Shown here in pieces: positions 531 through 33,242 of a stretch of DNA of 39,728 bases. The stretch is from Chloroflexota bacterium. GTDB lineage: Bacteria; Chloroflexota; Dehalococcoidia; UBA2247; JAUWOP01. The position numbers and the translations under genes are program-made. Under the pieces are notes generated by a model that worked only from the letters and a program-made list of their open reading frames with translations, was not told the DNA's origin and made no database searches. Location of the stretch: contig JAUWOP010000008.1 in NCBI GenBank assembly GCA_030612045.1, positions 1 through 39,728 on the forward strand, read 5' to 3'. Position 1 is the first letter of the stretch. The number at the start of each line of letters is the position of its first letter.

Positions 531-700
531 GCGACACCCCTTTTCCTGAAATTACCTTCTCTGAGCACAGGATTCTCTTTGGGTTTACTCTACGCAGTAT
601 TGAAGTTATGACGTTTGGCATTAGTGATAATTCAGGAGTGTTACAGGTAGAGGTTTCTGAGGCTGCATTTACCTTATGGCTTTCGCGCCACGAAAGCTAA
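521..700 (+). pseudogene. C-terminal fragment of an unknown protein
   Basis: In a different frame from the preceding fragment, about 59 codons read to TAA at 698-700. They include FPEITFSEHRILFGF and SGVLQVEVSEAAFTLWL. The pattern of alternating hydrophobic residues looks like a beta-rich domain end. No start or ribosome-binding site is visible. It overlaps the 3' end of the convergent methyltransferase gene by 27 bases. The family is unknown. It could be the continuation of the 321-530 fragment after a frameshift. Confidence 0.3.
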
Positions 701-1348
701 TATCAATCGGAATGCTCTGGGAGTAATCTCAATTATCTTGAAGTCGCTCAACAGTGACCGTAGTTCACCAAATGAGTATGAGTGGTGGAATGGTTCTGGA
801 ACCGGACTTGTAGTAGGTAGAAATCTACGGAACTTCCAAATGGGATTCCTGCTTGGAATTGAGCCTATCAAAAGTCCCCCCACTTTGAGAACTCGAGAGA
901 TCTCTTCTATCATCCTTTCTGGTTGTGGTAAGTGCTCAAGGATTTCTGTGCAGATAACCACATCAAAAACACCTGGCATTAAGGGAAGAGTCTCAGCATC
1001 ACCAGTAATAAACTCAGCCTGCGGCGAGTGGAGCTTAGCCCTTTCAATAGCCCACCGATTGATGTCCAACCCTACTGCGAGCTCGCAATCCAGATGGCGG
1101 GTAATTAACCCGGTGCCGCAACCAATATCCAATACTGCGGATCCTGTAAAATACTTCTTGACGAGTTTTGCAGTCTCACTCTCCCGCCGCCGATGATATA
1201 CGCCACTGAGGCGCTTAGGGTCAGTGACCCAATCGTATCTCTCAACATCAATATAATGCCGCTTTATCTCGTCTAGCTTTTCCACCTGATTAACCAAAAC
1301 TAATTGTATATTCAGCAGGTTTATCTTGTCAATAGACACTGGGCTCAT
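674..1348 (-). CDS. Class I SAM-dependent methyltransferase
   Basis: This 224-residue protein has the Rossmann glycine motif LDIGCGTG near residue 75, an acidic ribose-binding position (VGLDINRWAIERA), GDAETLPL (motif II) and the DVVICTEILEHLPQP segment typical of the UbiE/Methyltransf_11 group. The family moves a methyl group from S-adenosylmethionine to a small molecule or sugar; the substrate cannot be read from sequence. Its ATG overlaps the TGA of the upstream DUF2079 gene (ATGA), so it is probably translationally coupled and is the last gene of the glycan operon. Methylation of a sugar or polyprenyl-linked glycan is a reasonable inference from this context. Confidence 0.85.
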   Translation of the reverse strand: MSPVSIDKINLLNIQLVLVNQVEKLDEIKRHYIDVERYDWVTDPKRLSGVYHRRRESETAKLVKKYFTGSAVLDIGCGTGLITRHLDCELAVGLDINRWAIERAKLHSPQAEFITGDAETLPLMPGVFDVVICTEILEHLPQPERMIEEISRVLKVGGLLIGSIPSRNPIWKFRRFLPTTSPVPEPFHHSYSFGELRSLLSDFKIIEITPRAFRLILAFVARKP

Positions 1349-2868
1349 GGCAGGTTAATGAGGGGTCCTTCATAGTCTAGTTTATAGAGACTTACACTAC
1401 CTGCTTGAGCCAGAAGCCCGTATTTCCCCTCAAGATAGCTTACTATCTCATCCTCCCAGCAACCACCCTGGTATTGGTGCCTTTGCTGCCAGTCTATTAC
1501 TACATACTCTGTTTCCCGATAGGGGACTCCGAAATCTCCGTAGTCTTCATTTGCCGGCTGCAGACAAGGGGCTAAATAGGCATCTGTGCGGCAGCAGAGG
1601 TGAGGGAGGATGCGTCGCTGGGCTGTTACTGTGGCATCATCAGGAACAAGGGAGATCATGCTATCAATTGCCTCCACCTCCGATGCTGGTAAGGACGAAA
1701 ACGAAGAATCTCTGAATACACTCGTTGGATATAAATTTACCAGGACAGCAGCTAAAATCATAACAGCTAGCAGAGGCCTCCATATTCTCCTCAGGAGCAG
1801 CATCAATCTTCCCTTTTTCATCTGAGCTAGACCTATAATCAGTGCTGTAAATAGAAACGGAATCGCTGCCGTATGGTATTGGCGCAGGCAATGCTGGTTA
1901 ACATTCGTGGATAGCATGCCCATAATCAGGATGAGAAGAGCAGGTGCAACCCAAAGTGGGGACAGTAGTGGCAAGAAGGCAAGGGGCAAGAAGTAGGCAA
2001 AAATCAGGAATAGCGACGATACACTAAAGAAGGCGCATAGGGCATCAGGGATTGCCTGAGCAATAGGCTCATCTATATAAGCGTACCTGATACTGGCATA
2101 CGCTAGTAAGGGAGGGCAATCTAGTCCCGAAGCTGCTCTTGCTACTACTGCTGCTATGCCATAAGTTGCTATAGATGCTAAGATGACTACTAAATATACC
2201 TTTTCCACCTTCTTACTTCTCAAATAGCAGGCAATAAGCATGACCAGCCCAAATACAAGGAGGATAAGAGCAATGGTCTCCTTGGTCATCAGTGCCAGGA
2301 TAAGACCCAGCGTGAAGAGCCTCCACCTCCTCTGTACCAGTCCCGTAATCATAATGAGCAACGCAGGTACAGCAAAGACCACAGGATGGAAATCATAGAA
2401 ATTTACACCATAAACCAAGGGGTTAATGAAGAATAAAAACTCGATGGCCAGTGTCACTTTATGATTTAGCCCCTGACTCCGTCCCAGGTTATATACCAGA
2501 TAGCCACCTAAACCTAAAGCTAAACTCTGCACTATGAGCAGTGTCTCGCAATGCGGTGCCAGCCAGAATATGGGTACAAGGAGCAGGAGAATTGGTGTGA
2601 AGTGATACCCAAAGGAAGACATACCATCTATAGAGCTGTAAAGGATGTCTCCTTGCAGTGTGGATTTCAAGGTCTGGGCAAATAGCCCTAAGTCCAGGGC
2701 ACAGGTTTGGTAGGACTGATGGCGTAAAATAGAAACGAAGGATGCTATAGCTGCATATGCTACAGCTAACAAGACAGCTTGAAATATAGGATTATGGACT
2801 AGCCCGCCAAGGTGTGGCAATGCCCCTTGGAACCTTGCTCTCAAATATGGCTGTCCCATTTTATGCAA
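1345..2868 (-). CDS. DUF2079 multi-spanning membrane protein (predicted GT-C-like)
   Basis: A 507-residue protein with about ten hydrophobic segments. Family signatures are CALDLGLFAQTLKSTLQGD near residue 57 and FGYHFTPILLLLVPIFWL near residue 86, followed by NFYDFHPVVFAVP near 155. DUF2079 proteins are predicted integral-membrane glycosyltransferases that use lipid-linked sugar donors; the activity is mostly unproven. The acidic residue in LDLGLF and the histidine/acidic positions of the first outer loops are where GT-C enzymes carry catalytic residues. The C-terminal 100 residues are soluble. It is a paralogue of the next upstream gene and is separated from it by 10 bp. The start at 2868 is TTG; an ATG three codons later (2859) is an alternative. 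Confidence 0.8.
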   Translation of the reverse strand: MHKMGQPYLRARFQGALPHLGGLVHNPIFQAVLLAVAYAAIASFVSILRHQSYQTCALDLGLFAQTLKSTLQGDILYSSIDGMSSFGYHFTPILLLLVPIFWLAPHCETLLIVQSLALGLGGYLVYNLGRSQGLNHKVTLAIEFLFFINPLVYGVNFYDFHPVVFAVPALLIMITGLVQRRWRLFTLGLILALMTKETIALILLVFGLVMLIACYLRSKKVEKVYLVVILASIATYGIAAVVARAASGLDCPPLLAYASIRYAYIDEPIAQAIPDALCAFFSVSSLFLIFAYFLPLAFLPLLSPLWVAPALLILIMGMLSTNVNQHCLRQYHTAAIPFLFTALIIGLAQMKKGRLMLLLRRIWRPLLAVMILAAVLVNLYPTSVFRDSSFSSLPASEVEAIDSMISLVPDDATVTAQRRILPHLCCRTDAYLAPCLQPANEDYGDFGVPYRETEYVVIDWQQRHQYQGGCWEDEIVSYLEGKYGLLAQAGSVSLYKLDYEGPLINLP

Positions 2869-2878
2869 CGAAGGGTAA

Positions 2879-4399
2879 TCATAGAATCACCAGGGGTTCC
2901 CCTTCGTATCCTCTCTTATACAAATATATCCCATCACCCTGGGCATATATCCCATATTCCCTCATCAGTCTATTCAGGCTCTCCTCATCAGCCTGTTTGA
3001 ATGCAGAGAATCTAGTTGTTGAATCCACCAGAATATAATCATAGCTGCCGCTATATTTCCAATGATATAGCTTGCCCTCCTGTGAAACCGGGAACTGGTA
3101 ATATTCAAAGAAGTTCGTTCTCTCAGTAGTGAGGGTAGAATAGGCATGTAACCTATGGCATACATGAGGGAAGATATCATTCTGGGTGTATATTGAGGCA
3201 TTCTCTGGGATAAGCTCAATTACCTGGTCCAGAGCCTCGTCGTGAGGAGTTACCTGGGGCATATCATGAATCAGTGATATAGGGCTATAGCTTAAGAGCA
3301 GCACGGCAATTAGTAACACAGGGAGTAACACATAGGGGAGCCTGGCGTAGATAACTCTGCGCTTTACCACCAGCCACTTAACCCCGTAGATGCTGGCAAT
3401 AAAGAGCCACGGGATAAGTATAGAGGAATGCTGGTTAGTAATAACATACATTCCTGAACCACTAGCGAAGAGATTTTGAGCCAGAATAGGGAGACCGATT
3501 AAAACGACATGGTGGAGTAGAGATGTAAAGCATAGAGGGGCTAAGAGGTAGAATAGATAAAGCACCTTCATATCTGCATCCACAAACAGGCTATGCAGGG
3601 GTGTCTCATACCGCTGAGAGTAGACAAAGCTCCCCTCCGGGCTAAAGTAAGGAATTATAACCAGAACTGCCACCAAGAACCATACTATGCCACCCAAAAT
3701 CAGGAGCGAAGGGAAGATTATCTCCCGCTCCTTGGGAAAGCTTTTCCTTCTCAGGCAGCTCTTAACACTCTCCCTCTCTTCCCAGAGCCAATAAAGCCCC
3801 ATAAATATTACAACCAGGGGCACATTCTCCTTGCACATCATGGCAAGCACAGCAAGTGCCATACCCCATTTATATCGCTTGTTCCTGAACATATAGAAGG
3901 AAAATAGCAGAGGAGTTATGGCTAAGGCACTGCCGTGAAAATCAAAGTGATTAACCCCATGTAATGCAGGGTAGAGGAGATATAGTGCAGCGAAGGCAAC
4001 GCCAGCCTTTCCCCCCAGCTCATCCCTGGCTATCCAATAAATGGGAAGTGCTCCCAAAGCCAGAACAAGCGATTGTAGTATCAGCAAGGTTTCAGCCCGG
4101 GGGAAAATAGCATACAGCGGGAGGATAAAAAGCATGATTGGCTCAAAGTGGCTGCCCCAGCGTGAGCCCTCCCACAGAGCAGTATAGAATAAACCATCAC
4201 CGTGTAGAGTTGTCCATAGTGACTGCATATAGATGCCAAGGTCGTAAGCATATGTGTGGAAGGAGTAGTGATTCAGGATAGTGTAGTAGGAGAAATATGC
4301 AGTATAAAGCGCCATGAGGACGAAGACTACATAGACAGGTTTATCCTTGAATTTTTGCAGTAACTTATGAATATTACGACCTCTATTTCTTCCAGACAA
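2879..4399 (-). CDS. DUF2079 multi-spanning membrane protein, tandem paralogue
   Basis: This 506-residue membrane protein matches its downstream neighbour along its length: AYDLGIYMQSLWTTLHGD near residue 55, WGSHFEPIMLFILPLYAIF near 87, NHFDFHGSALAITPLLF near 150, many transmembrane helices and a soluble tail ending in LYKRGYEGEP (compare LYKLDYEGP in the neighbour). The two genes are therefore a tandem duplication that has diverged strongly. It probably transfers a sugar from a polyprenyl-phosphate donor on the outer face of the membrane, and the adjacent GT2-GtrA protein would supply such a donor. That role is an inference. The start overlaps the end of the GT2-GtrA gene by 17 bases, so the genes form one operon. 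Confidence 0.8.
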   Translation of the reverse strand: MSGRNRGRNIHKLLQKFKDKPVYVVFVLMALYTAYFSYYTILNHYSFHTYAYDLGIYMQSLWTTLHGDGLFYTALWEGSRWGSHFEPIMLFILPLYAIFPRAETLLILQSLVLALGALPIYWIARDELGGKAGVAFAALYLLYPALHGVNHFDFHGSALAITPLLFSFYMFRNKRYKWGMALAVLAMMCKENVPLVVIFMGLYWLWEERESVKSCLRRKSFPKEREIIFPSLLILGGIVWFLVAVLVIIPYFSPEGSFVYSQRYETPLHSLFVDADMKVLYLFYLLAPLCFTSLLHHVVLIGLPILAQNLFASGSGMYVITNQHSSILIPWLFIASIYGVKWLVVKRRVIYARLPYVLLPVLLIAVLLLSYSPISLIHDMPQVTPHDEALDQVIELIPENASIYTQNDIFPHVCHRLHAYSTLTTERTNFFEYYQFPVSQEGKLYHWKYSGSYDYILVDSTTRFSAFKQADEESLNRLMREYGIYAQGDGIYLYKRGYEGEPLVIL

Positions 4400-5474
4400 G
4401 GTTCAAGCTCGCCACATAGTTCCATATCATCACTATTATTATAGCTACCAGGGCAGAGAGTATGTAATATATGCCGAGGAATTCGGTCAGGCAGTAGAGG
4501 ATGGCTAAATTCATTGCCAAACCAATCAATCTAACAGCACCAAATCTTAGCACCCTCCCGGGGATGTTAGAGAATCCTTGCTTCCTCAGGTCCCTGAATG
4601 TCCAGAGATCATTCAGGGCGAAGTTAGAAAGTACTGCCCCCATCCAGCTAAGGACTGCGGAGATAAGATATAGCAAACCCAATTTATCAGTTAGTAAGAA
4701 AAGCAAGCCTAGATTTATGCCTACACCACTGCCTCCAACTATACAGAACTTGACTATGCGCTCAAACTCGCCTGATGCCATCATAAGATGGAACACATGG
4801 CTCAAATAGGCAAAGTAATCCCTCAAACTGAACTTACTCTTCTCACCTTTGCGTTTCTCAAAGGTGTAAGGAACTTCAACAACGCTATCGTAGTGACCCT
4901 TAACCAGAAGCTGGAGGAGAAATTTAGCCCCGATAGATATATTACCCGAAGGTATTGTGGATAGCACCTGGGTGTCTGTGATGACCTCTTTCTTGAAGAG
5001 GAAAAAACCAGACATGGTGTCCTTAACACTCCTAATCCTGGGAAGGAGAAGATGAGCGATTGTCCCTGCCCCCCTAGACACAAGCCCACGCCAGAAACTT
5101 CCTTTGTTATGCCCAGTATCAATATATCGGCTGGCGATAACTATGTCGTGCCCTCTAGCTTGCTCTAACATGAGTGGCAAAAGTTGGGGAGGATGCTGCA
5201 TATCAACATTGAGAGTGCCAATCACATCCCCGCTGGCAATCTTTACCCCCTCAGCTATAGCCGAGGCTACCCCCAATTTCCTTTCTCGATGGATAACCTT
5301 TATATTGCCATATCTATACGCCAGTGCCTCAGCCACTTCACCCGTACCATCAGGGCTATTGTCATCAACTATTATCAACTCATATTCTGTAGTATTTAGT
5401 GAGCTTCTAACAGCCGTAGTGAATCTGGAGAGATTTTCAGCCTCTTTGTATGTAGGCACTACTATAGAGAGCAT
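4383..5474 (-). CDS. Polyprenol-phosphate mannosyltransferase-like GT2 fused to GtrA domain
   Basis: Residues 1-225 are a GT-A type family 2 glycosyltransferase: VVPTYKEAENL at the N-terminus, IIVDDNSPDGTGEVAE (first nucleotide-sugar aspartate), TLNVDMQHPP (the DxD-like metal site) and VIASRYIDTG. This matches dolichol-phosphate mannose synthases, which make polyprenyl-phosphate sugars on the inner membrane face. Residues 235-363 contain four hydrophobic helices of the GtrA family (KFCIVGGSGVGINLG; NDLWTFRD), thought to anchor or flip the lipid-linked sugar. The domain order equals that of the split pair encoded at 9696-10421 and 8774-9292. It overlaps both neighbours by a few bases and is part of the operon. 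The sugar specificity is not certain. Confidence 0.87.
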   Translation of the reverse strand: MLSIVVPTYKEAENLSRFTTAVRSSLNTTEYELIIVDDNSPDGTGEVAEALAYRYGNIKVIHRERKLGVASAIAEGVKIASGDVIGTLNVDMQHPPQLLPLMLEQARGHDIVIASRYIDTGHNKGSFWRGLVSRGAGTIAHLLLPRIRSVKDTMSGFFLFKKEVITDTQVLSTIPSGNISIGAKFLLQLLVKGHYDSVVEVPYTFEKRKGEKSKFSLRDYFAYLSHVFHLMMASGEFERIVKFCIVGGSGVGINLGLLFLLTDKLGLLYLISAVLSWMGAVLSNFALNDLWTFRDLRKQGFSNIPGRVLRFGAVRLIGLAMNLAILYCLTEFLGIYYILSALVAIIIVMIWNYVASLNLVWKK

Positions 5475-6349
5475 AACTGACCCATATGACTGGACGTCAA
5501 GGGTATCTTCTTCATCTCCTCATTTATCTTAGCCACTGTCTCGAAGAGTTTGGGGTCGATGCCCTGCTCTTTAATGAAGGTGATAGAAGCAGCTAAATCC
5601 TTAGGCAGGCATTCCCCCCCAAAAGCCCAGCCACCTCTAGTGTAATACTCAGCATTGCGAATACCCAGGGAGCACTTAGATAATGCTTGTGATATTATCT
5701 CGTGGTCAAGACCACTCCTCTGTGCAATGAGGTATAGCATATTAAAAAAAGAAACCTTTGTCGCATTATAGACATTAGAAAAGCACTTGATTGCTTCAGC
5801 ATTCCCTAATGTGGTCCGGAATTGTGGTGACTGGAATGGGGCATACAACTCTGCTAACATATTGCCGCTACGTTCATCAACCTCCCCTATTACAATCGCA
5901 GGTGGTTGAAGAAAGTCCTCCAAAGCATATGCTTCCCTCAGGAACTCTGGATTATAGCATATGCCGTAATCTCTACCTAATCTCAGAGGGCAGCAGTTCT
6001 GCAGCAAGGGGATAACCTTTCTTTCAGTAGTAAACGGTAAAAGAGTGCTCCTGACAACCACTGCCTGATACGCATCTTGCTGAACCAATACCTCTGACAA
6101 CTCTGTGATAGCTGCTTCAAGGGGAATTATATCGAATTTGCCGTCCACTAAAAGACTAGGAACACAAATCATGTGGATGTCGAAGCCCCTCGCACTCTTA
6201 AGAGTCTCAGTCACTCTGTACCCTTGCTCAGCAAGTATTTTGAGCTTCTGTTCATCAACATCATAAAATAGTACATCATGCCCATATTTATGCAGTCCCA
6301 TGCCAGTAGCTTTCCCAACTACTCCTGCTCCTATTATTGAGACCTTCAT
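5462..6349 (-). CDS. UDP-glucose/GDP-mannose dehydrogenase-like protein lacking the C-terminal domain
   Basis: The N-terminus has the NAD-binding fold (KVSIIGAGVVGKATGMGL), VRSTLLPFTT and YNPEFLREAYALEDFLQPP, all typical of UDP-glucose 6-dehydrogenases. The catalytic motif FGGECLPKD is present with the nucleophile at Cys247. These enzymes oxidise a nucleotide sugar to its uronic acid using two NAD+. The protein is only 295 residues, against about 420-450 for the family: the C-terminal UDP-binding domain is absent and the frame ends cleanly, overlapping the next gene's start by 13 bases. Without that domain, sugar binding must differ or the protein must work with a partner. Short versions without this domain may form a natural subfamily; I cannot tell whether this one is degraded. 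Confidence 0.75.
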   Translation of the reverse strand: MKVSIIGAGVVGKATGMGLHKYGHDVLFYDVDEQKLKILAEQGYRVTETLKSARGFDIHMICVPSLLVDGKFDIIPLEAAITELSEVLVQQDAYQAVVVRSTLLPFTTERKVIPLLQNCCPLRLGRDYGICYNPEFLREAYALEDFLQPPAIVIGEVDERSGNMLAELYAPFQSPQFRTTLGNAEAIKCFSNVYNATKVSFFNMLYLIAQRSGLDHEIISQALSKCSLGIRNAEYYTRGGWAFGGECLPKDLAASITFIKEQGIDPKLFETVAKINEEMKKIPLTSSHMGQLCSL

Positions 6350-6530: not shown

Positions 6531-7643
6531 TCACAACCCCATCCTACTCAAAGATGAGATAGCTTCAGAAACTCTAATTACATCCTCGTGGCTTAACTTA
6601 ACACTGCTTGGAAGGCTTATACCTCGGCGAGACAAGTCCTCAGCTATAGGGAATCTCTCTTCAGTTCGATACATAGGCATGAAGTGCACCGGATAGAAAA
6701 ATGGCCTTGTCTCTATCTCCCTTTCCCTCAACTCCTCGATAAGTTTGTTCCTGCTGAGAGCAAATCCCTCCCCCAGCAGAATAGAATACATCCAGTAAAC
6801 ACTCCTCGCCCAGGGCATCTTAGGAGGCAGTTGTACTAATCCCTGCCTCGATAGCTCTCCCAGATACTCCCCATACCACCCTGCTACCTGCCTCTTTATC
6901 TCAATAAATCGGTCAATCTTCCCCAGTTGAGCTACACCCAATGCTGCCTGCAAATTGGTCATTCTGTAGTTGAAGCCAACGACATCGTGCCAGTAGGGCT
7001 TCCCCGGCGTAGTGCCATGGTCCCGCAGAATCCTTATCCTCTGAGCTAATCCTGCATCATTAGTGAGACACATCCCCCCCTCACCTGTAGTAATAATCTT
7101 ATTACCAAAGAAGGAAAAACAGGCTATATCACTGAAGGAACCCGCTCGCCTGCCCCGGTATTCTGCCCCGTGAGCCTCGGCAGCATCCTCAATAACATAC
7201 AGATGGTGAGCCTGTGCCGCCTCAATAATTGGCTCCATATCGCAGGGGTGCCCGTACAGGTGTACTGGAATAATCGCCCTTGTTTTGCTGGTTACCTTTG
7301 ATTCTATCCTCTCCGGGTCAATACACCAGTATTCGGGGTGAGAATCAATACAAACAGGAGTAGCACCAGTGAAGGTAACTGTATTTGCTGTGGCTATAAA
7401 GGTGAGCGAGGGGATAAGAACCTCATCTCCACTCCCAATTCCCAGAGCTGCCAGGGCAAGGTGAAGGGCAGTAGTGCCACTGGAAGCAGCAACACCATGC
7501 CTGATACCGCAGTAGGCAGCAAACCCTTCCTCAAATTGGGGAATATACTCTCCTATAGAGCTAACCCAACCAGACTCGACTGCTGCTTTTACATTAGCTA
7601 CCTCCTCCTCACCAATCGAGGGCTCGGCAACGGGAATTCTCAT
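6531..7643 (-). CDS. DegT/DnrJ/EryC1/StrS sugar aminotransferase, perosamine-synthase-like
   Basis: A full-length 370-residue PLP-dependent sugar aminotransferase. Motifs in order: SSGTTALHLALAALG near residue 54, HLYGHPCDMEPI near 128, VIEDAAEAHGAEYRGR near 150 and CFSFFGNKIITTGEGG with the PLP lysine at K182, then NYRMTNLQAALG. It lies immediately downstream of GDP-mannose 4,6-dehydratase, whose product GDP-4-keto-6-deoxymannose is the substrate of GDP-perosamine synthase. I therefore infer that the pair makes GDP-perosamine, but 3-amino sugars cannot be excluded. The 181 bp between this gene and the next gene hold a short in-frame hydrophobic stretch after the stop (LLTLVGIMAGFFCVRWFRKK), possibly the relic of a membrane protein end. 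Confidence 0.85.
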   Translation of the reverse strand: MRIPVAEPSIGEEEVANVKAAVESGWVSSIGEYIPQFEEGFAAYCGIRHGVAASSGTTALHLALAALGIGSGDEVLIPSLTFIATANTVTFTGATPVCIDSHPEYWCIDPERIESKVTSKTRAIIPVHLYGHPCDMEPIIEAAQAHHLYVIEDAAEAHGAEYRGRRAGSFSDIACFSFFGNKIITTGEGGMCLTNDAGLAQRIRILRDHGTTPGKPYWHDVVGFNYRMTNLQAALGVAQLGKIDRFIEIKRQVAGWYGEYLGELSRQGLVQLPPKMPWARSVYWMYSILLGEGFALSRNKLIEELREREIETRPFFYPVHFMPMYRTEERFPIAEDLSRRGISLPSSVKLSHEDVIRVSEAISSLSRMGL

Positions 7644-7660
7644 TACCTACACTTTCATCA

Positions 7661-7737
7661 AATCCCCCTTCCCCCTTTTCTAAAGGGGGAAGGGAATGGA
7701 AGCCCCCTTTTTTCTAAAGGGGGATTTAGGGGGATTA
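7661..7737. repeat. Palindromic AATCCCCC/GGGGGATT repeat
   Basis: Two nested inverted repeats: AATCCCCCTTCCCCCTTTT with its partner AAAGGGGGAAGGG, then CCCCCTTTTTT...AAAGGGGG and a terminal GGGGGATT. It lies between the aminotransferase and gmd genes and touches the gmd stop codon. The same motif forms the core of the repeat at 33101-33242. It could act as a transcription attenuator inside the operon, but it is mainly a dispersed palindromic element. Confidence 0.75.
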
Positions 7738-8763
7738 TTCCTTGGAGGGATAATTGATAGCATCCCAGGAGAACTGCTCTCCCCGGAGCCACCTGCGCCA
7801 ACATTCAAGGTCAGCCTCTACCATAATCTGTACCAGTTCGTCAAACTTCACCTTCGCTTTCCACCCCAGATGTTCCCCTACTTTAGAAGGGTCTCCCCTC
7901 AGAGAGTTAACTTCCAGGGGACGAAGTAACCTTGAACTACTTCGGGTATACTCCTCCCAATTCAGATTGACACACTCAAATGCCCTGCGGACAAGCTCCT
8001 CTACAGAGTGGCTCTCACCAGTAGCAACAACATAGTCACCTGGTTTATCCTGCTGCAGCATCAGCCACATCGATTCCACATACTCAGGGGCATACCCCCA
8101 GTCCCTCTTCGCCTCCAGGTTACCCAGCACCAGCTCCTTCCCCAGTCCCAGAGCAATCCTTGCCACCGCATTAGAGACTTTCCGTGTAACAAATTCAAGT
8201 CCCCTGAGGGGTGATTCGTGATTGAACAGGATACCATTGCAGGCAAAAATCCCGTATGCCTGACGGTAAATTTTAGTCATATGATAGGCATAGAGTTTAG
8301 CAGCAGCATAAGGACTGGCAGGCACAAAAGGGGTAACTTCGTTTGATGAACCATCATTACCATTCCCATACAGTTCACTGGTAGATGCCTGGTAAAATTT
8401 AACCCCAGGGTTGACCTGCCGCACTACCTCCAGTATTCGTGAGGTTCCCAGTCCCGTAATCTCAGCCGTAGCCAGCGGCTGGTCAAAGGATGCCTCTACA
8501 AAACTCTGCGCCGCCAGATTATAGATTTCATCCGGCTGAGAGAGGGTTACTACCTGCAGTAGTGAAGTAGTATCAGTCAAATCTACTGGCAGTAGTCTGA
8601 CCTCGTCATATATGTCAAGGTTAATAAGCCTCCAGAAGTTGGGGGTGGATAAACGTCGGTAAGCCCCAAAGACATCACAGCCCTTGCCCAACAGGAATTT
8701 TGCCAAGTAGGCTCCATCCTGACCAGTTACCCCTGTTATCAATACTCTCTTCGTCACTGACAA
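7735..8763 (-). CDS. gmd: GDP-mannose 4,6-dehydratase
   Basis: This short-chain dehydrogenase/reductase of 342 residues starts with the NADP-binding motif ITGVTGQDGAYLAKFLL and carries ASTSELYG near residue 126 and the catalytic pair Tyr152 and Lys156 in SPYAAAKLYAY. The FNHESPLRG motif near 205 and RDWGYAPEYVE are hallmarks of GMD. It converts GDP-mannose to GDP-4-keto-6-deoxymannose, the branch point to GDP-perosamine, rhamnose and fucose. No fucose synthase is nearby, while a sugar aminotransferase follows, which points to perosamine. The gene is 10 bp downstream of the GtrA gene and in the same direction. Confidence 0.92.
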   Translation of the reverse strand: MSVTKRVLITGVTGQDGAYLAKFLLGKGCDVFGAYRRLSTPNFWRLINLDIYDEVRLLPVDLTDTTSLLQVVTLSQPDEIYNLAAQSFVEASFDQPLATAEITGLGTSRILEVVRQVNPGVKFYQASTSELYGNGNDGSSNEVTPFVPASPYAAAKLYAYHMTKIYRQAYGIFACNGILFNHESPLRGLEFVTRKVSNAVARIALGLGKELVLGNLEAKRDWGYAPEYVESMWLMLQQDKPGDYVVATGESHSVEELVRRAFECVNLNWEEYTRSSSRLLRPLEVNSLRGDPSKVGEHLGWKAKVKFDELVQIMVEADLECWRRWLRGEQFSWDAINYPSKE

Positions 8764-8773
8764 CCTCTTAGGC

Positions 8774-9292
8774 TCAATTCAGGGTTTGCTCGCTCTTATG
8801 AGATGATTTCCAGACCCATAGAGTACTGAGAAGGAAATTAACCGGGAATGCCGCCACAATCGCACACAGGCTAGAGATAATGTAATGTAAACCAACAACC
8901 TGTGTCAACAGAGTTAGGACGCTCAGATAAGTAATCGCCACTCCGAGACATGAGAGCTGAAATTTTAGCCAGCCCTTAAAAAGAATCGAGGGAATAAGCT
9001 TTGGATTTCTATCCCTAAATGTCCAAAGTTGGTTCCAGGTAAAATTGTTGCTCACCGACAATATATGGGCAATCACAGCGGAGAGAAGATAAAAGAATCC
9101 CACTACATCGGTGAACAGCCATAGAATACCAATGTTTACCCCTACCCCACTTAATCCCACCAGCCCAAATTTCACCACCCTAAACACTTTCCTCAATACT
9201 TCAGATTTATGCTCAAGGTAGAAACGCCTCAGATAACCCACATTCAGTTGATGGCTATTTGCAAACTCAATCTTCCTCTCATCTACAGCCAT
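8774..9292 (-). CDS. GtrA family membrane protein
   Basis: A 172-residue protein with four predicted transmembrane helices after a charged N-terminus of about 35 residues. GtrA signatures are FGLVGLSGVGVNIGILWLF and NFTWNQLWTFRDRN. GtrA proteins are thought to take part in moving polyprenyl-phosphate sugars across the membrane or to anchor the partner GT2. It corresponds to the C-terminal half of the fused protein at 4383-5474. Its natural partner is probably the separate GT2 at 9696-10421, from which it is separated by a 403-bp segment holding a repeat and a sigma-gene relic. ATG start at 9292; the coding frame ends just before gmd. Confidence 0.85.
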   Translation of the reverse strand: MAVDERKIEFANSHQLNVGYLRRFYLEHKSEVLRKVFRVVKFGLVGLSGVGVNIGILWLFTDVVGFFYLLSAVIAHILSVSNNFTWNQLWTFRDRNPKLIPSILFKGWLKFQLSCLGVAITYLSVLTLLTQVVGLHYIISSLCAIVAAFPVNFLLSTLWVWKSSHKSEQTLN

Positions 9293-9430
9293 ATAATCTC
9301 CGGGAAGAAATTACTTACCGCACTCTCTGCAAGGTACATCGTTCACATATTGTATAGGAGTATAGCATTTCCCACTAAGGAAATCTAGGAATTGCACTCG
9401 TTCAACCTCCTTACACAAAGCTGCAACTAC

Positions 9431-9519
9431 TCACCCTAATGTCATTCTTCGGTCGCTACGCTCCCTCAGAATCTTAGAGACCCTTCACTATGCTCAGGGT
9501 GACATTAGCAAGTGGGTGA
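9431..9519. repeat. Dispersed palindromic repeat (CACCCTAATGTCATTC ... GGGTGACATTAG)
   Basis: The ends are inverted copies (ACCCTAATGTCA and TGACATTAG), and the inside contains CGGTCGCTACGCTCC and GACCCTTCACTATGCTCAGGG. It is of the same general type as the repeats at 10451-10538 and 33101-33242 and ends in GGTGAAC, as those elsewhere do. It is non-coding and probably forms a strong stem. Confidence 0.7.
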
Positions 9520-9536
9520 ACACTTACAAAATATAG

Positions 9537-9629
9537 GTGTCGCCCACTATTAGATAAACGGTCTTGAGGTCCATGCCCTTGTGATGATGAAAGCGCTTCA
9601 AACTCCCCTAACTCAAATTGCCTCGTCAA
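9537..9629 (-). pseudogene. Relic of the 5' end of an ECF sigma factor gene
   Basis: The minus strand matches the first ~30 codons of the intact sigma gene at 29303-29827: a TTG start at 9627-9629 preceded by GGAGACTATAGC, then CAA..GAGTTA.GGAG.TTGAAGC, CATGG.C.TCAAGACCG.TTA and GGGCGACACC. After one small gap the reading frame is lost, and homology stops at about 9537. The copy includes the upstream promoter (see 9658-9684). It is therefore a truncated duplicate, not a working sigma factor. It sits between the GT2 and GtrA genes in the same orientation as them. Confidence 0.8.
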
Positions 9630-9657
9630 GCTATAGTCTCCCTATCTTCTACTATAA

Positions 9658-9684
9658 TATACGCAAGCTTGGCGGAAAGGTTCA
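9658..9684 (-). promoter_or_regulatory. Second copy of the ECF-type promoter, facing the glycan operon
   Basis: On the minus strand TGAAC is followed by a 16-base spacer and CGTATA, exactly as at the intact sigma gene (29856-29882). The spacer bases differ between the copies while both boxes and the spacing are kept. The pattern resembles ECF consensus promoters of the TGAAAC-N16-CGTA type. The closest genes downstream in this direction are gtrA and gmd. A housekeeping -10 (TATTAT) overlaps it, so activity without the ECF factor is also possible. Confidence 0.5.
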
Positions 9685-9695
9685 TTAGAAACCTA

Positions 9696-10421
9696 CTATT
9701 CCCACCCCATCCTCAGCTTGAGCGCCCTGAGTCCATAGGAGAAACCAGTCTGGAAGAAACCCGTCTTACTCATTCCTTTTCGACGCGGATGATAAGCAAA
9801 TCCAATCTCTTTCATGCGCCAGTCTTTCCTGCACCCCTGGTACAGCAGCACAAAACAGTAGTCTCCATACCCCTTAAAGATGGACTCCAGATCTAGACCA
9901 TCAAGCAAGTTCCTCCTCAGGGCTATGAAACCACCAGTAACATCCTTCACCGGTATCCTGAGCAGCGTCCTTATAAAGCTGTTCAATACACAGCTGCCCC
10001 ATACCAGGTGACGAGAAGAGTTCATCTCACCGCTTTCAATATAGCGAGAGGCTATGGCAATATCCACTCCATTAACCGCCTCTTCTACCAGAGAAGGAAT
10101 GATGTCAGGGTCATGACTCATATCAGCATCCATTATAACCAGAATATCCCCTCTCGATTCCTCTATGCCCCGCCTTATGGCAGTCGCCAACCCTCTCTCG
10201 CACTCACGAATCACTACCTTCAGAGCAGGATATATTCCCATCAGAGAGCAGCATAACTCCCCTGTCCCATCAGGACTGCTGTCATCTACTACTATCACCT
10301 CACATTCAACACTGTGCAACATGTTCCCCCACTCCAACCCCAGCACACTCTCTATAAGTGAAGAGATGCCATAACATTCATTATAGGTAGGGATTATTAC
10401 CGACACCTTATGCTCTTCCAT
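9696..10421 (-). CDS. Glycosyltransferase family 2, dolichol-phosphate mannosyltransferase-like
   Basis: This 241-residue protein has the GT2 core VSVIIPTYNECYGISSLI, EVIVVDDSSPDGTGEL, a central ILVIMDADMSHDPDIIP (the DxD metal-binding site) and IAIASRYIESGEM near residue 135. It resembles polyprenol-phosphate mannosyltransferases and is close to the N-terminal half of the fused GT2-GtrA protein at 4383-5474. It lacks its own membrane domain, and the GtrA protein 403 bp downstream is the likely partner. It probably transfers mannose or a related sugar from a nucleotide donor to polyprenyl phosphate on the inner membrane face. Sugar specificity is inferred only. Confidence 0.85.
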   Translation of the reverse strand: MEEHKVSVIIPTYNECYGISSLIESVLGLEWGNMLHSVECEVIVVDDSSPDGTGELCCSLMGIYPALKVVIRECERGLATAIRRGIEESRGDILVIMDADMSHDPDIIPSLVEEAVNGVDIAIASRYIESGEMNSSRHLVWGSCVLNSFIRTLLRIPVKDVTGGFIALRRNLLDGLDLESIFKGYGDYCFVLLYQGCRKDWRMKEIGFAYHPRRKGMSKTGFFQTGFSYGLRALKLRMGWE

Positions 10422-10450
10422 TGGTGGGTATTATACACCCTTTCCCTCTT

Positions 10451-10538
10451 GTCGTTACAAGCGAAGCGAAGACGCAAAGCTAATCTCGCTCTCACCCCAC
10501 CGCTGAGATTGCCTCGTCGCTACGCTCCTCGCAATGAC
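10451..10538. repeat. Palindromic GTCATTGCGAGGAGCGTAGCGACG repeat
   Basis: Reading the minus strand, GTCATTGCGAGGAGCGTAGCG, then GAGGCAATCTCAG and GAGCGAGATTAGC, ends in CTTCGCTTCGCTTGTAACGAC. The two halves are imperfect inverted copies. The same unit occurs at 33101-33242 (TCATTGCGAGGAGTGTAGCGACG). It fills the gap between the ABC permease and the GT2 gene and may form a transcription-blocking stem. Confidence 0.75.
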
Positions 10539-10549
10539 TTTAGGGTGGT

Positions 10550-11320
10550 TTAGATATTCTCCCTGATGCGGAACATCATTGTCGCTAAGATTATCATTAC
10601 CGCAGCAAATATAGCCAGGATGACCATATTCACTATCAGGAGATGCCAATCGTAGCCGCTGATAAACAGAGTTCGGACGGATTCGACAGTGTAGTCAATA
10701 GGGTTAAACCTTCTGGCAGTATCTATCCAGTCAGGGAGCATTTGAATCGGCATCATCGATGAGGAAAGAAACATTAGAGGCAGTGTGAGGAAACTGACCA
10801 CTGCTATAAGAGGCTCTGCCTTTTGGAACAGAATTGCCAGGGCGTGTGATAAGCCAGCAAGCCCCAATCCCATAAGGATTACGAAGAAAATACTGAGTAG
10901 TATTCCTCCAGCACCAGTAGCAGGGCTAGCACCCATTATCCATGCTATCAAAAAGATAATTAGTACCTGTACGACTAATGGAACTACGGTAGCCAGCACC
11001 TTGCTCAGTATGATGGAGACACGGGATACTGGTGTTGCCAGCATCTTGGTTAATATACCCGTATCAATCTCACGGATAAGCCCCATTCCTGACCAGGCAG
11101 ACCCAAAGAGGGCTGTCATCACCACTACGCCGGGAGCGAAGAATTGCAGGTAGCTGCCAGTGGGAAATCCTGGCATGTTACCCAGGCTCTCAAAAAGCTG
11201 GCTGAAGAGCACAAGCCAGATTATAGGCTGTATCAGGTTCATGAATATCCATACTGGCATACGGAGCTGGAGCCTGATTTGCCGCACAAAAAGATACCAG
11301 GTATCAGAAAGATAGTTCAA
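10550..11320 (-). CDS. ABC-2 type transporter permease
   Basis: This 256-residue protein has six hydrophobic segments and the ABC-2 membrane pattern: a charged N-terminus (FVRQIRLQLRMPVWIFMNL), PGVVVMTALFGSAWSGMGLI, REIDTGILTKMLATPVSR and FLTLPLMFLSSSMMPI near residue 180. It resembles the DrrB-like exporter family, in which the permease works with a separate ATPase to export drugs, lipids or polysaccharide. The partner is the gene upstream at 11504-12539, which is broken by a frameshift. A 180-bp gap with a hairpin repeat separates the two. The substrate is unknown; nearness to the glycan cluster does not prove a link. Confidence 0.85.
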   Translation of the reverse strand: MNYLSDTWYLFVRQIRLQLRMPVWIFMNLIQPIIWLVLFSQLFESLGNMPGFPTGSYLQFFAPGVVVMTALFGSAWSGMGLIREIDTGILTKMLATPVSRVSIILSKVLATVVPLVVQVLIIFLIAWIMGASPATGAGGILLSIFFVILMGLGLAGLSHALAILFQKAEPLIAVVSFLTLPLMFLSSSMMPIQMLPDWIDTARRFNPIDYTVESVRTLFISGYDWHLLIVNMVILAIFAAVMIILATMMFRIRENI

Positions 11321-27602: not shown

Positions 27603-28205
27603 TTACGAAACAAAAGTAGCCATCTCTCCCACCTCCAGGGTGGTGGTGCCACGAAGGACAAAGATGGTATTCGAGGTATACTGGAAGTTAACTTCATCAT
27701 CTGTTTCAGTAGCTAAGGTAACGGTATCCGTCTCTGAGGAGACGGAGGTAACCGTGCCATTAAGGTGCTCATCAAAAATCCAGGCAGGGCATATTAGGTG
27801 TCGCCTCAGACATGGACGGTCACAGACCTGTGGTCGGCAGCGACAAATATTTCTCGGTTGAAGGCACTTATGTGGCACAAAATCCTCCAGGACCTCCGGT
27901 CGATCTTGCCACCACTCACGAATCTCATTAGCCTGCTCTTCAGTAAGCTCACCACTGTTAATAGCTTCTTGGAGTCGCTGCTCCCAGGCTTCATCACGCA
28001 TCTCATGACGTGCCTGCTTAAAGGCATCAGCTACTTGCTCTTCTTCCAGCCCTAGAATACTTGCTACCTTGCTGATGAAGGTCTGCGCTGGACCATTGCC
28101 TTCTTTACTGGATGACCCTGAGGCAAAGGCAACAGTGGTAAATCCAGCCGCAAGAACAAGGACTGCCACGATGGCAATTACTAGAAACTTAGTGTACTTT
28201 CTCAT
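27603..28205 (-). CDS. Secreted protein with helical N-domain and DUF5666-like C-domain
   Basis: A 200-residue protein with a signal peptide (MRKYTKFLVIAIVAVLVLAA, cleavage likely after AFA). A helical region follows that reads like DUF2680/YckD proteins (VASILGLEEEQVADAFKQA, INSGELTEEQANEIREWW). Next comes a cysteine/arginine-rich stretch (CLQPRNICRCRPQVCDRPC), then a beta-rich segment (GTVTSVSSETDTVTLAT, TTTLEVGEMATFVS) like DUF5666. The end is abrupt: one base shift at the stop would allow KTQEETLVLVKV, so the C-terminus may be frameshifted. The function is unknown; it is probably extracytoplasmic. A strong GGAGGTGAT-type site precedes the ATG. It lies downstream of the sigma/anti-sigma operon. 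Confidence 0.65.
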   Translation of the reverse strand: MRKYTKFLVIAIVAVLVLAAGFTTVAFASGSSSKEGNGPAQTFISKVASILGLEEEQVADAFKQARHEMRDEAWEQRLQEAINSGELTEEQANEIREWWQDRPEVLEDFVPHKCLQPRNICRCRPQVCDRPCLRRHLICPAWIFDEHLNGTVTSVSSETDTVTLATETDDEVNFQYTSNTIFVLRGTTTLEVGEMATFVS

Positions 28206-28316: not shown

Positions 28317-29306
28317 TCATATCTCTATCCGCTCGAATGTAGAGCTGACTGTTAACTTGCCATCCATCATTCCAGGTACCACATCAGTTCTGATTGCTGT
28401 TGTTTGAGACTCATGTGACTTATCAAGCATGTATACCTTTACTACCTCTCTTTTGCCCCAGTCTATTTTCACAAGACAGAGTTCCTTATCATCCTGCCGC
28501 AGAGCTAAACCAACGAATTCCTTTTCAGGAGAAGATAAATATGCGGTTCTGCTTACCTCGGCGCCAGCATCAAGGAAGCCTCGAACTTCAGGATTACCAC
28601 GAGCTACATTAATGACAGCATCCACGCTCACTCCCTCGGGTAGACCCGATGGTCGTAGTGTATAGCTCTTGCTAGCCTCAGTTAATTCAATTCGGATAAC
28701 TCTTCTCTTTCCCTCCTCTACATCTACCGTGGCAATCCCTATCAATGTTTTATCTTCTGGGCGCATAAGATGAACATAATAAATGTTTCTCTTATCTGAC
28801 TTGAACGCCACTACATACACTTTGGAGGAGACAGAGAAGCCCTTCTCTGCCAGCAAAAGCTGGACTCCTGGGTCTTCCAAAGCTATGTTCTCTGCCATGG
28901 CTTCCGGGGACTGCCCCAGCAGCGATGGTATTGTTAGGCACAACCCCACAATTAATGCCACACTCAATGCGCAGGCAAGTGCTTTCTGCCAAACAGGTTG
29001 CTGCCTTAGCCTATCTATTCCTCTTTTTACTTTTGACTTCACCATTATTAAAATAGGAATCCTGCGATGCTCCTCTCTTTCTAGTGGCTGCTTGATAGTT
29101 GCCCAGGCATAGGAGGAAGGGGAAACCCTTGCTGTGATTACCTTAAAAGCATGGCGAAGCTCTCTCTGGGTGCTGGCAAGAGCCTCCAATTCCTCCCTGC
29201 AACTGGGACAAGCAGACAGATGAGCCACAATAGCATCTCGTTCCTCAGTGCTAACCTCATTATCGAGGTAGCTGAGGAGTAGTTGGTTAATTTCCTTACA
29301 ATTCAT
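28317..29306 (-). CDS. Anti-sigma factor with zinc-finger (zf-HC2) domain
   Basis: The 329-residue protein opens with MNCKEINQLLLSYLDNE and HLSACPSCREELEAL, the HxxxCxxC zinc-binding anti-sigma domain. One transmembrane helix follows near residues 110-130 (ALACALSVALIVGLCLTI) and then a ~190-residue outside domain. It overlaps the sigma gene by 4 bases (ATGA) and so is coupled to it. By family knowledge it holds the ECF sigma factor inactive at the membrane until a signal arrives. The outer domain contains two similar stretches (VYVVAFKSDKRN and EFVGLALRQDDKE), which may be sensor repeats. The signal is unknown. Confidence 0.87.
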   Translation of the reverse strand: MNCKEINQLLLSYLDNEVSTEERDAIVAHLSACPSCREELEALASTQRELRHAFKVITARVSPSSYAWATIKQPLEREEHRRIPILIMVKSKVKRGIDRLRQQPVWQKALACALSVALIVGLCLTIPSLLGQSPEAMAENIALEDPGVQLLLAEKGFSVSSKVYVVAFKSDKRNIYYVHLMRPEDKTLIGIATVDVEEGKRRVIRIELTEASKSYTLRPSGLPEGVSVDAVINVARGNPEVRGFLDAGAEVSRTAYLSSPEKEFVGLALRQDDKELCLVKIDWGKREVVKVYMLDKSHESQTTAIRTDVVPGMMDGKLTVSSTFERIEI

Positions 29307-29827
29307 GGTGTAAGCTCCTTGCGCAAGGCCTTAATAGCAGTGTTAAGTCGAGATTTGACTGTTCCCAAAGGGATTTTTAAGACTTGCGCTATCTCATCAT
29401 AAGAGAGGTCATCAAAATACCTGAGAGTAAGCACTGCACGATGTTTTCTATCTAAGGACTTCATTGCTCGCTGTATCCTCTCACTTTCCTCCTGCTTTAT
29501 TAAAAGCTCTTCAGGAAGCTGAGAAGGGGCTCCCGGCGGGTCAAAATCCCCTTCTTCAAGCCTTTCATCAAGAGAGAAGAAGGGCAAATGCTTCTTGCGG
29601 CACTTAGAGATACATTGGTTGACAGTGATGCGATGGAGCCATGTGTTAAATCCCCCTTTCTCAGGACGGAAGGTGTCACCTGCTCTATAGACCTTGATAA
29701 AAACCTCTTGCAAAACATTCTCAGCTTCTTGGGTATCGCCTAGAATTAAGTAAGCGGTCTTGAAGACCATGTCTTTGTGACAATGAAAGAGTGCTTCAAG
29801 CTCCTCTAACTCAGATTGCTTCGCCAA
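29303..29827 (-). CDS. ECF-type RNA polymerase sigma factor
   Basis: A 174-residue group 4 sigma factor. Region 2 includes LFHCHKDMVFKTAYLILGD, ENVLQEVFIKVYRAGDTF and FNTWLHRITVNQCISKCRKK. Region 4 includes AVLTLRYFDDLSYDEIAQVL and PLGTVKSRLNTAIKALRKEL, a complete helix-turn-helix. It starts with TTG at 29827, preceded by AAGGAG at 8 bases. Its own promoter (29856-29882) has the ECF type, so it is probably autoregulated. It is cotranscribed with the membrane anti-sigma factor. A truncated copy of its 5' end and promoter lies 20 kb away at 9537-9684. Confidence 0.92.
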   Translation of the reverse strand: MAKQSELEELEALFHCHKDMVFKTAYLILGDTQEAENVLQEVFIKVYRAGDTFRPEKGGFNTWLHRITVNQCISKCRKKHLPFFSLDERLEEGDFDPPGAPSQLPEELLIKQEESERIQRAMKSLDRKHRAVLTLRYFDDLSYDEIAQVLKIPLGTVKSRLNTAIKALRKELTP

Positions 29828-29855
29828 GCTATAGTCTCCTTATCTTCTACTATAA

Positions 29856-29882
29856 TATACGCAGAGTTAGCAAAAAAGTTCA
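29856..29882 (-). promoter_or_regulatory. ECF-type promoter of the sigma/anti-sigma operon
   Basis: Minus strand: TGAAC, 16-base spacer, CGTATA, close to the SigW-like consensus TGAAAC-N16-CGTA. The same boxes and spacing occur in the duplicate at 9658-9684. It lies 29 bases upstream of the TTG start. Autoregulation by the encoded sigma factor is inferred. Confidence 0.6.
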
Positions 29883-29940
29883 TTTATATTTTACTATCGT
29901 ATTAAAAACTGGTATACCCAAGACACTACTGGAGTAGCTT

Positions 29941-33106: not shown

Positions 33107-33242
33107 CACCCGCTCTCATGTCATTGCGAGGAGTGTAGCGACGAAGACGCAAGCTAATCCCTTTAATCCCCCTTAGTCCCCCTTTAGTAAAGGGGGACTA
33201 AGGGGGATTGCTTCGCTTCGCTCGCAATGACACAGGTGAACG
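33101..33242. repeat. Composite palindromic repeat with ACCGTTCACC/GGTGAACG ends
   Basis: The outer ends ACCGTTCACC and GGTGAACG are inverted. Inside are TCATTGCGAGGAGTGTAGCG and CTTCGCTCGCAATGACA, and in the core AATCCCCCTTAGTCCCCC with its inverse GGGGGACTAAGGGGGATT. Thus two repeat types seen singly at 10451-10538 and 7661-7737 are nested in one unit. The rest of the 33243-33394 gap holds no clear gene. Confidence 0.75.

Follow-up and report, generated by a model that had tools for sequence, protein, structure and literature searches.

The Sigma Operon

The window analyzed here is a stretch of 39,728 nucleotides from a Chloroflexota bacterium, within a draft genome of 1.62 Mb in 85 contigs that is 97% complete. 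On its reverse strand lies a presumed operon headed by the gene for an ECF sigma factor, with the following features.

29856..29882, reverse strand: ECF promoter of the sigma operon, TGAACTTTTTTGCTAACTCTGCGTATA; −35 TGAACYTTT, −10 GCGTATA; conserved before sigma orthologues of the class
29303..29827, reverse strand: ECF sigma factor gene, SigW-like, with a TTG start (Pfam Sigma70_r2 and Sigma70_r4)
28317..29306, reverse strand: anti-sigma factor gene with an N-terminal zf-HC2 domain (Pfam, E 2.3e-11), overlapping the sigma gene
27603..28205, reverse strand: third gene of the presumed sigma operon, an open reading frame (ORF) with an N-terminal hydrophobic segment

The sigma protein is 174 amino acids long and contains Sigma70_r2 (residues 13-79) and Sigma70_r4 (residues 121-170), with no further Pfam domains. 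Its best NCBIfam model is SigW (129 bits, cutoff 209), and the SigW equivalog cutoffs of TIGR02948 and NF007223 are both missed (115.7 vs 243.1 and 129.1 vs 209 bits, respectively). As expected of an ECF (group IV) sigma factor, its stop is overlapped by the gene of an anti-sigma (zf-HC2) protein, and it has its own promoter with AAC and CGT boxes that are conserved upstream of the orthologues. The NCBIfam anti-sigma models score below cutoff for the anti-sigma protein, and neither Pfam nor NCBIfam has a family for the third gene. Judged from ORFs, the order of sigma and anti-sigma genes is the same in three relatives (G005, G138, and G228). The anti-sigma ORF of G005 (L119, 10489-12810) encodes 773 amino acids with a long extracytoplasmic-looking region, compared with 329 amino acids here. 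A contig scan for relatives of the sigma factor returned matches of 32-40% identity only. At E ≤ 1e-3, a threshold that picked up many other ECF sigma factors in relatives, the sigma protein had no second match in the genome.

The Copied Segment and the Glycan Genes

About 20 kb away, among sugar genes on the same strand, the start of the sigma operon recurs.

9696..10421, reverse strand: GT2 glycosyltransferase gene upstream of the copy (Pfam Glycos_transf_2, E 9e-31); it ends 9 bases ahead of the copy
9658..9684, reverse strand: copied ECF promoter, TGAACCTTTCCGCCAAGCTTGCGTATA; exact match to the class-wide motif
9630..9657, reverse strand: copied 5' leader to the start codon; matches the original at 27/28 positions and keeps a Shine-Dalgarno-like GGGAG
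9536..9629, reverse strand: copied sigma codons 1-32, now decayed (19/94 mismatches and a 2-base deletion)
9430..9520, reverse strand: repeat-like palindrome CTAATGTCA...TGACATTAG in the gap from the copy to gtrA, with no T run
8774..9292, reverse strand: gtrA, GtrA/DPMS transmembrane domain (Pfam PF04138, E 7e-25), with GGAG just before the ATG
7735..8763, reverse strand: GDP-mannose 4,6-dehydratase-like gene, gmd (Pfam PF16363, E 5e-117; TIGR01472 389 bits, cutoff 415)
6531..7643, reverse strand: DegT/DnrJ/EryC1 sugar aminotransferase gene, degT (Pfam PF01041, E 2e-129)
674..6349, reverse strand: rest of the sugar cluster, comprising genes for a nucleotide-sugar dehydrogenase, a GT2-GtrA fusion, two DUF2079 membrane proteins, and a methyltransferase

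An earlier reading of this DNA, made from the sequence only, had proposed that the promoter and 5' end of the sigma gene were duplicated here, that the coding part of the copy had decayed, and that both promoter boxes and their 16-base spacing were intact while the spacer had changed; it had also suggested a genome search for TGAAC-N16-CGTATA. All of this was borne out. When positions 9301-9800 were compared with the window by BLASTN, 9536-9686 aligned with 29732-29884, both on the reverse strand, over 154 columns at 81.8% identity (E 1.4e-31). The donor comprises the promoter, the leader, and the first 32 codons of the sigma gene. With the copy as query, the whole genome matched at these two places only; there was no third copy, the next match being 17 bases long (E 0.07). 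TGAAC-N16-CGTATA occurs at exactly two genomic sites, 9658-9684 and 29856-29882, both on the reverse strand, i.e., in the copy and before the sigma operon.

The differences between copy and original are unevenly spread. None falls in the boxes (AATGAAC 0/7 and CGTATA 0/6, together 0/13) and one in the leader between the −10 box and the start codon (1/28), compared with 7/16 in the spacer and 19/94 in the coding part. The coding mismatches are distributed 6/7/6 over the three codon positions, 12 of the 19 alter the amino acid, which is near the neutral expectation, and the 2-base deletion shifts the frame. The coding part of the copy is thus a pseudogene that has been decaying neutrally. Polarized by the orthologues of G005 and G052, 8 of the coding changes belong to the copy and 7 to today's sigma gene; the other 4 are unclear. 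The seven changes on the sigma-gene side imply that the copy is no recent offshoot of today's sigma gene, and the duplication predates several changes in that gene. Since about half of the coding differences arose on the original's side, the copy's own decay amounts to only ~0.10-0.13 per site. The decayed sigma start still keeps GGGAG and a TTG start, from which a frame stays open for 51 codons (9474-9629, reverse strand) and ends inside the palindrome at 9474. This frame is possibly a leader peptide.

The sugar genes behind the copy share one strand and either overlap or are separated by short gaps. The −10 box and the start of gtrA are 366 nt apart, with the palindromic repeat in between; at the other motif sites with a clear gene, the start codon lies within tens of nucleotides of the −10 box. 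On the copy's strand, no intrinsic terminator or sigma-70-like promoter was called in 9293-9695, and no known RNA family was found in the window. In folding energy the leader does not surpass shuffled sequences (z −0.3). The earlier reading was right that the copy is oriented toward gtrA-gmd and the rest of the sugar cluster; it does not stand at the cluster's head, however, as the same-strand glycosyltransferase gene (stop at 9696) lies upstream. Because that gene ends 9 bases before the copy, the promoter would lie inside a longer series of sugar genes.

The gtrA-gmd-degT order recurs in G014, an order-level relative, with a galE-like gene preceding gtrA there, and gtrA could plausibly head an operon. 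Neither a close sigma orthologue nor the motif was found in G014, and therefore control by the sigma factor would be specific to the present lineage. The best GtrA match in G005 is only 29% identical. Two further observations concern the architecture of this region. Repeat-like palindromic elements at 10440-10550 and 9430-9520 flank the glycosyltransferase gene (9696-10421) and share pieces such as GTCGCTACGCTCC; the element at 10440-10550 also has a 25-base match at 33120-33144. Moreover, the domains encoded by the glycosyltransferase gene (9696-10421) and gtrA (8774-9292) are found fused in one protein at 4383-5474, and the copy sits between the two halves.

A Promoter Motif of the Sigma Lineage

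Searches with the sigma protein turned up 19 matches (E ≤ 1e-32) in 12 further genomes of the class. Most of the orthologues examined are preceded by TGAACYTTT, with a spacing of 16-17 bases between TGAAC and CGTATA; a related form, CGAAC or GGAAC, takes the place of TGAAC in some paralogues of G052 and in one of G138. The pattern TGAACYTTT-N11..14-GCGTATA was found 13 times in 393 genomes of the class, while a reversed control pattern was found 0 times. Eight of the nine motif-bearing genomes are among the 13 that encode a sigma orthologue (P 9e-13). On the strength of these results, the motif is a property of this sigma lineage and its predicted target.

Copy and original both match this pattern exactly. 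A T-to-C change after TGAAC in the copy retains the conserved TTT, and the same C is present in G138, G237, and G340. Against a profile of the family, the copy scores 29.3 and the original 38.2, with training sites spanning 27.3-42.4. The looser pattern TGAACNTT-N11..15-CGTA marks the sigma operon and the copy, and no others, in this genome; further loose matches there fall in or against coding sequence.

In some relatives the motif is also found away from the sigma gene. It lies 18-22 bases before genes for a serpin, an exported propeller protein, and a 60-amino-acid membrane protein in G052, and ~30 bases before a lipoprotein-like gene in G360. Since the motif precedes genes of exported proteins in relatives, the sigma factors of this lineage are likely to control extracytoplasmic targets in addition to their own genes. 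G005 is the nearest genome that encodes a sigma orthologue, and the motif occurs there only ahead of the sigma gene. The serpin of G052 (L201, G052:C17, 1501-2798) has an N-terminal signal-like segment and lies directly behind the sigma-family promoter, a placement which suggests an envelope or protease-defense target. G052 also carries five related sigma genes (L176, L186, L190-L192), several of them with CGAAC or GGAAC and GCTAT or GGTAT variants, suggestive of diverged promoter specificities. The class-wide motif offers a ready means of finding the targets of this sigma family in uncultured genomes.

Is the Copy Under Selection?

Neutral decay of the original was simulated at 0.20-0.10 changes per site. 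The full family motif survived 3-20% of the runs, the two boxes 9-31%; at the copy's own decay of ~0.10-0.13, intact boxes are expected in 22-31%. A profile score at least as high as that of the copy arose in 7-43%. Retention of the boxes was therefore not upheld as proof of selection in its own right.

Boxes and leader taken together are harder to account for by chance. With 1/44 positions changed, P is 0.06 at a decay of 0.10, 0.02 at 0.127, and 0.0007 at 0.20, and the contrast with the spacer (7/16) gives a Fisher P of 2e-4, in a partition to which the leader was joined after the data had been seen. The case for selection on the copy is thus less strong than the earlier reading had implied; what supports it is the retention of boxes plus leader. 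With ribosome-binding site and TTG start included, the leader is better conserved than a promoter requires, and promoter function does not account for this. The relatives available for these comparisons are order-level genomes at closest.

Alternative Explanations

A stub in another genome shows how a similar arrangement can arise. In G124 the motif is found between rplT and pheS (named from translated ORFs), followed by only ten sigma codons (L197, G124:C50, ~1400-1530). In G065 a complete sigma gene adjoins pheS in the same divergent arrangement; the promoter plus gene start is 87% identical between the two genomes over 75 bp and the pheS DNA 80% identical. It follows that G124 holds the stub of a deleted sigma gene, from the −35 box through codon 10, with intact boxes aimed into the end of rplT and no target. 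Intact boxes can thus outlast their gene in front of no target, and this makes a relic a live rival for the copy.

Accordingly, the copy could be the inert remnant of a second sigma gene, either a duplicate or formerly complete, that was truncated and is decaying, its boxes being intact only because too little time has passed. Expression of gtrA would then depend on a different promoter or on transcription continuing from the glycosyltransferase gene upstream. The low decay of the copy, at which intact boxes are expected in 22-31% of cases, fits such a remnant, as do the stub of G124 and the 366-nt leader. It is harder to reconcile with the conservation of boxes plus leader beyond the neutral expectation (P 0.0007-0.06, depending on the rate), with their heterogeneity relative to the spacer, and with the correct orientation of the copy toward a conserved operon head. 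Moreover, the remainder of the sigma gene and the anti-sigma gene have left no trace above chance between the stub and gtrA. We regard an inert remnant as a serious possibility, though on balance a doubtful one.

Another alternative is that the promoter is active and yields a short leader RNA or the 51-codon peptide ending in the palindrome, rather than transcripts of the glycan operon. What is best conserved in the copy is the leader together with its ribosome-binding site and TTG start, the frame remains open after the deletion, and the palindrome follows it. The peptide, however, is merely a frame-shifted sigma start in which drift ignores codon position, no terminator was called at the palindrome, and the folding is no more stable than in shuffled sequences, which leaves this explanation very unlikely. 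Finally, that the similarity is an artefact of assembly or chance was rejected with near certainty even for a draft of 85 contigs, since a match of this length and E-value is not fortuitous and the 27 differing sites argue against one sequence assembled twice.

A Regulon Possibly Extended by Duplication

The most likely reading, and the one toward which we lean, is that a promoter born by duplication places the glycan operon under the sigma factor. The presumably autoregulated promoter of the sigma gene, its leader, and its first ~32 codons were duplicated into the gap before gtrA-gmd-degT, after which the protein-coding part decayed freely and the promoter stayed recognizable. Positive autoregulation and release by an anti-sigma factor are general features of ECF systems. 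By analogy, the membrane anti-sigma factor would release the sigma factor, and RNA polymerase would then start at both promoters: a start at ~29850 would give more sigma and anti-sigma factor, and one at ~9650 would lead to transcription of the surface-glycan genes. This presumes that the copy is active and that transcription reads through the 366-nt leader. If this reading holds, which we think somewhat probable, the glycan operon would be the one additional target for which this genome has a strong site.

The earlier proposal that glycan synthesis is placed under the sigma/anti-sigma pair has accordingly gained and lost ground. In its favor, the boxes correspond to the target motif of the lineage, they occur at only two sites in the genome, and the gtrA-gmd-degT run is conserved; its weak side is the presumed activity of the copied promoter, given the long leader, the G124 stub, and the little weight that intact boxes over a changed spacer carry by themselves. 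A more specific version can be put forward only tentatively, its prospects being nearly balanced: that the regulon grew by copying the sigma gene's own 5' end, with promoter and leader kept by selection, to give a two-promoter regulon of a single ECF sigma factor of its kind. If true, this locus would be a snapshot of a sigma factor gaining a target by copying its own autoregulated promoter and not by point mutation of random sequence, and the sigma stub still attached would be the birth mark of that event. It would also provide a first clue to the role of the lineage's only ECF sigma factor of its kind, namely switching on surface-glycan synthesis.

Comparison with Known Systems

In Bacillus, SigW recognizes promoters with a −35 AAC and a −10 CGTA and has envelope-related targets; its anti-sigma factor RsiW is released by proteolysis. 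The system described here resembles SigW in its best named NCBIfam model, in the same boxes 16-17 bases apart, and in the envelope-related nature of its putative targets. It differs in that the score falls short of the equivalog cutoff and that the genome has only two strong sites.

Hallmarks of ECF operons include AAC and CGT boxes, a co-transcribed anti-sigma gene, and positive autoregulation (PMC8103513). The present operon shares with such autoregulated operons the sigma2 and sigma4 domains, the overlapping anti-sigma gene, and its own AAC/CGT promoter. Unlike in those operons, the promoter and gene start recur here as a decayed copy before a glycan operon. In a literature search of limited extent, no report was found of an ECF regulon growing by copying of its own promoter.

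Regulatory rewiring by moved or copied promoter DNA is known from mobile promoters and from the transfer of noncoding DNA. As in those cases, a promoter-bearing segment is found before a new operon. In contrast to them, the copied DNA comes from the same genome, from the 5' end of the sigma gene itself, and the copy carries the target of that very sigma factor.
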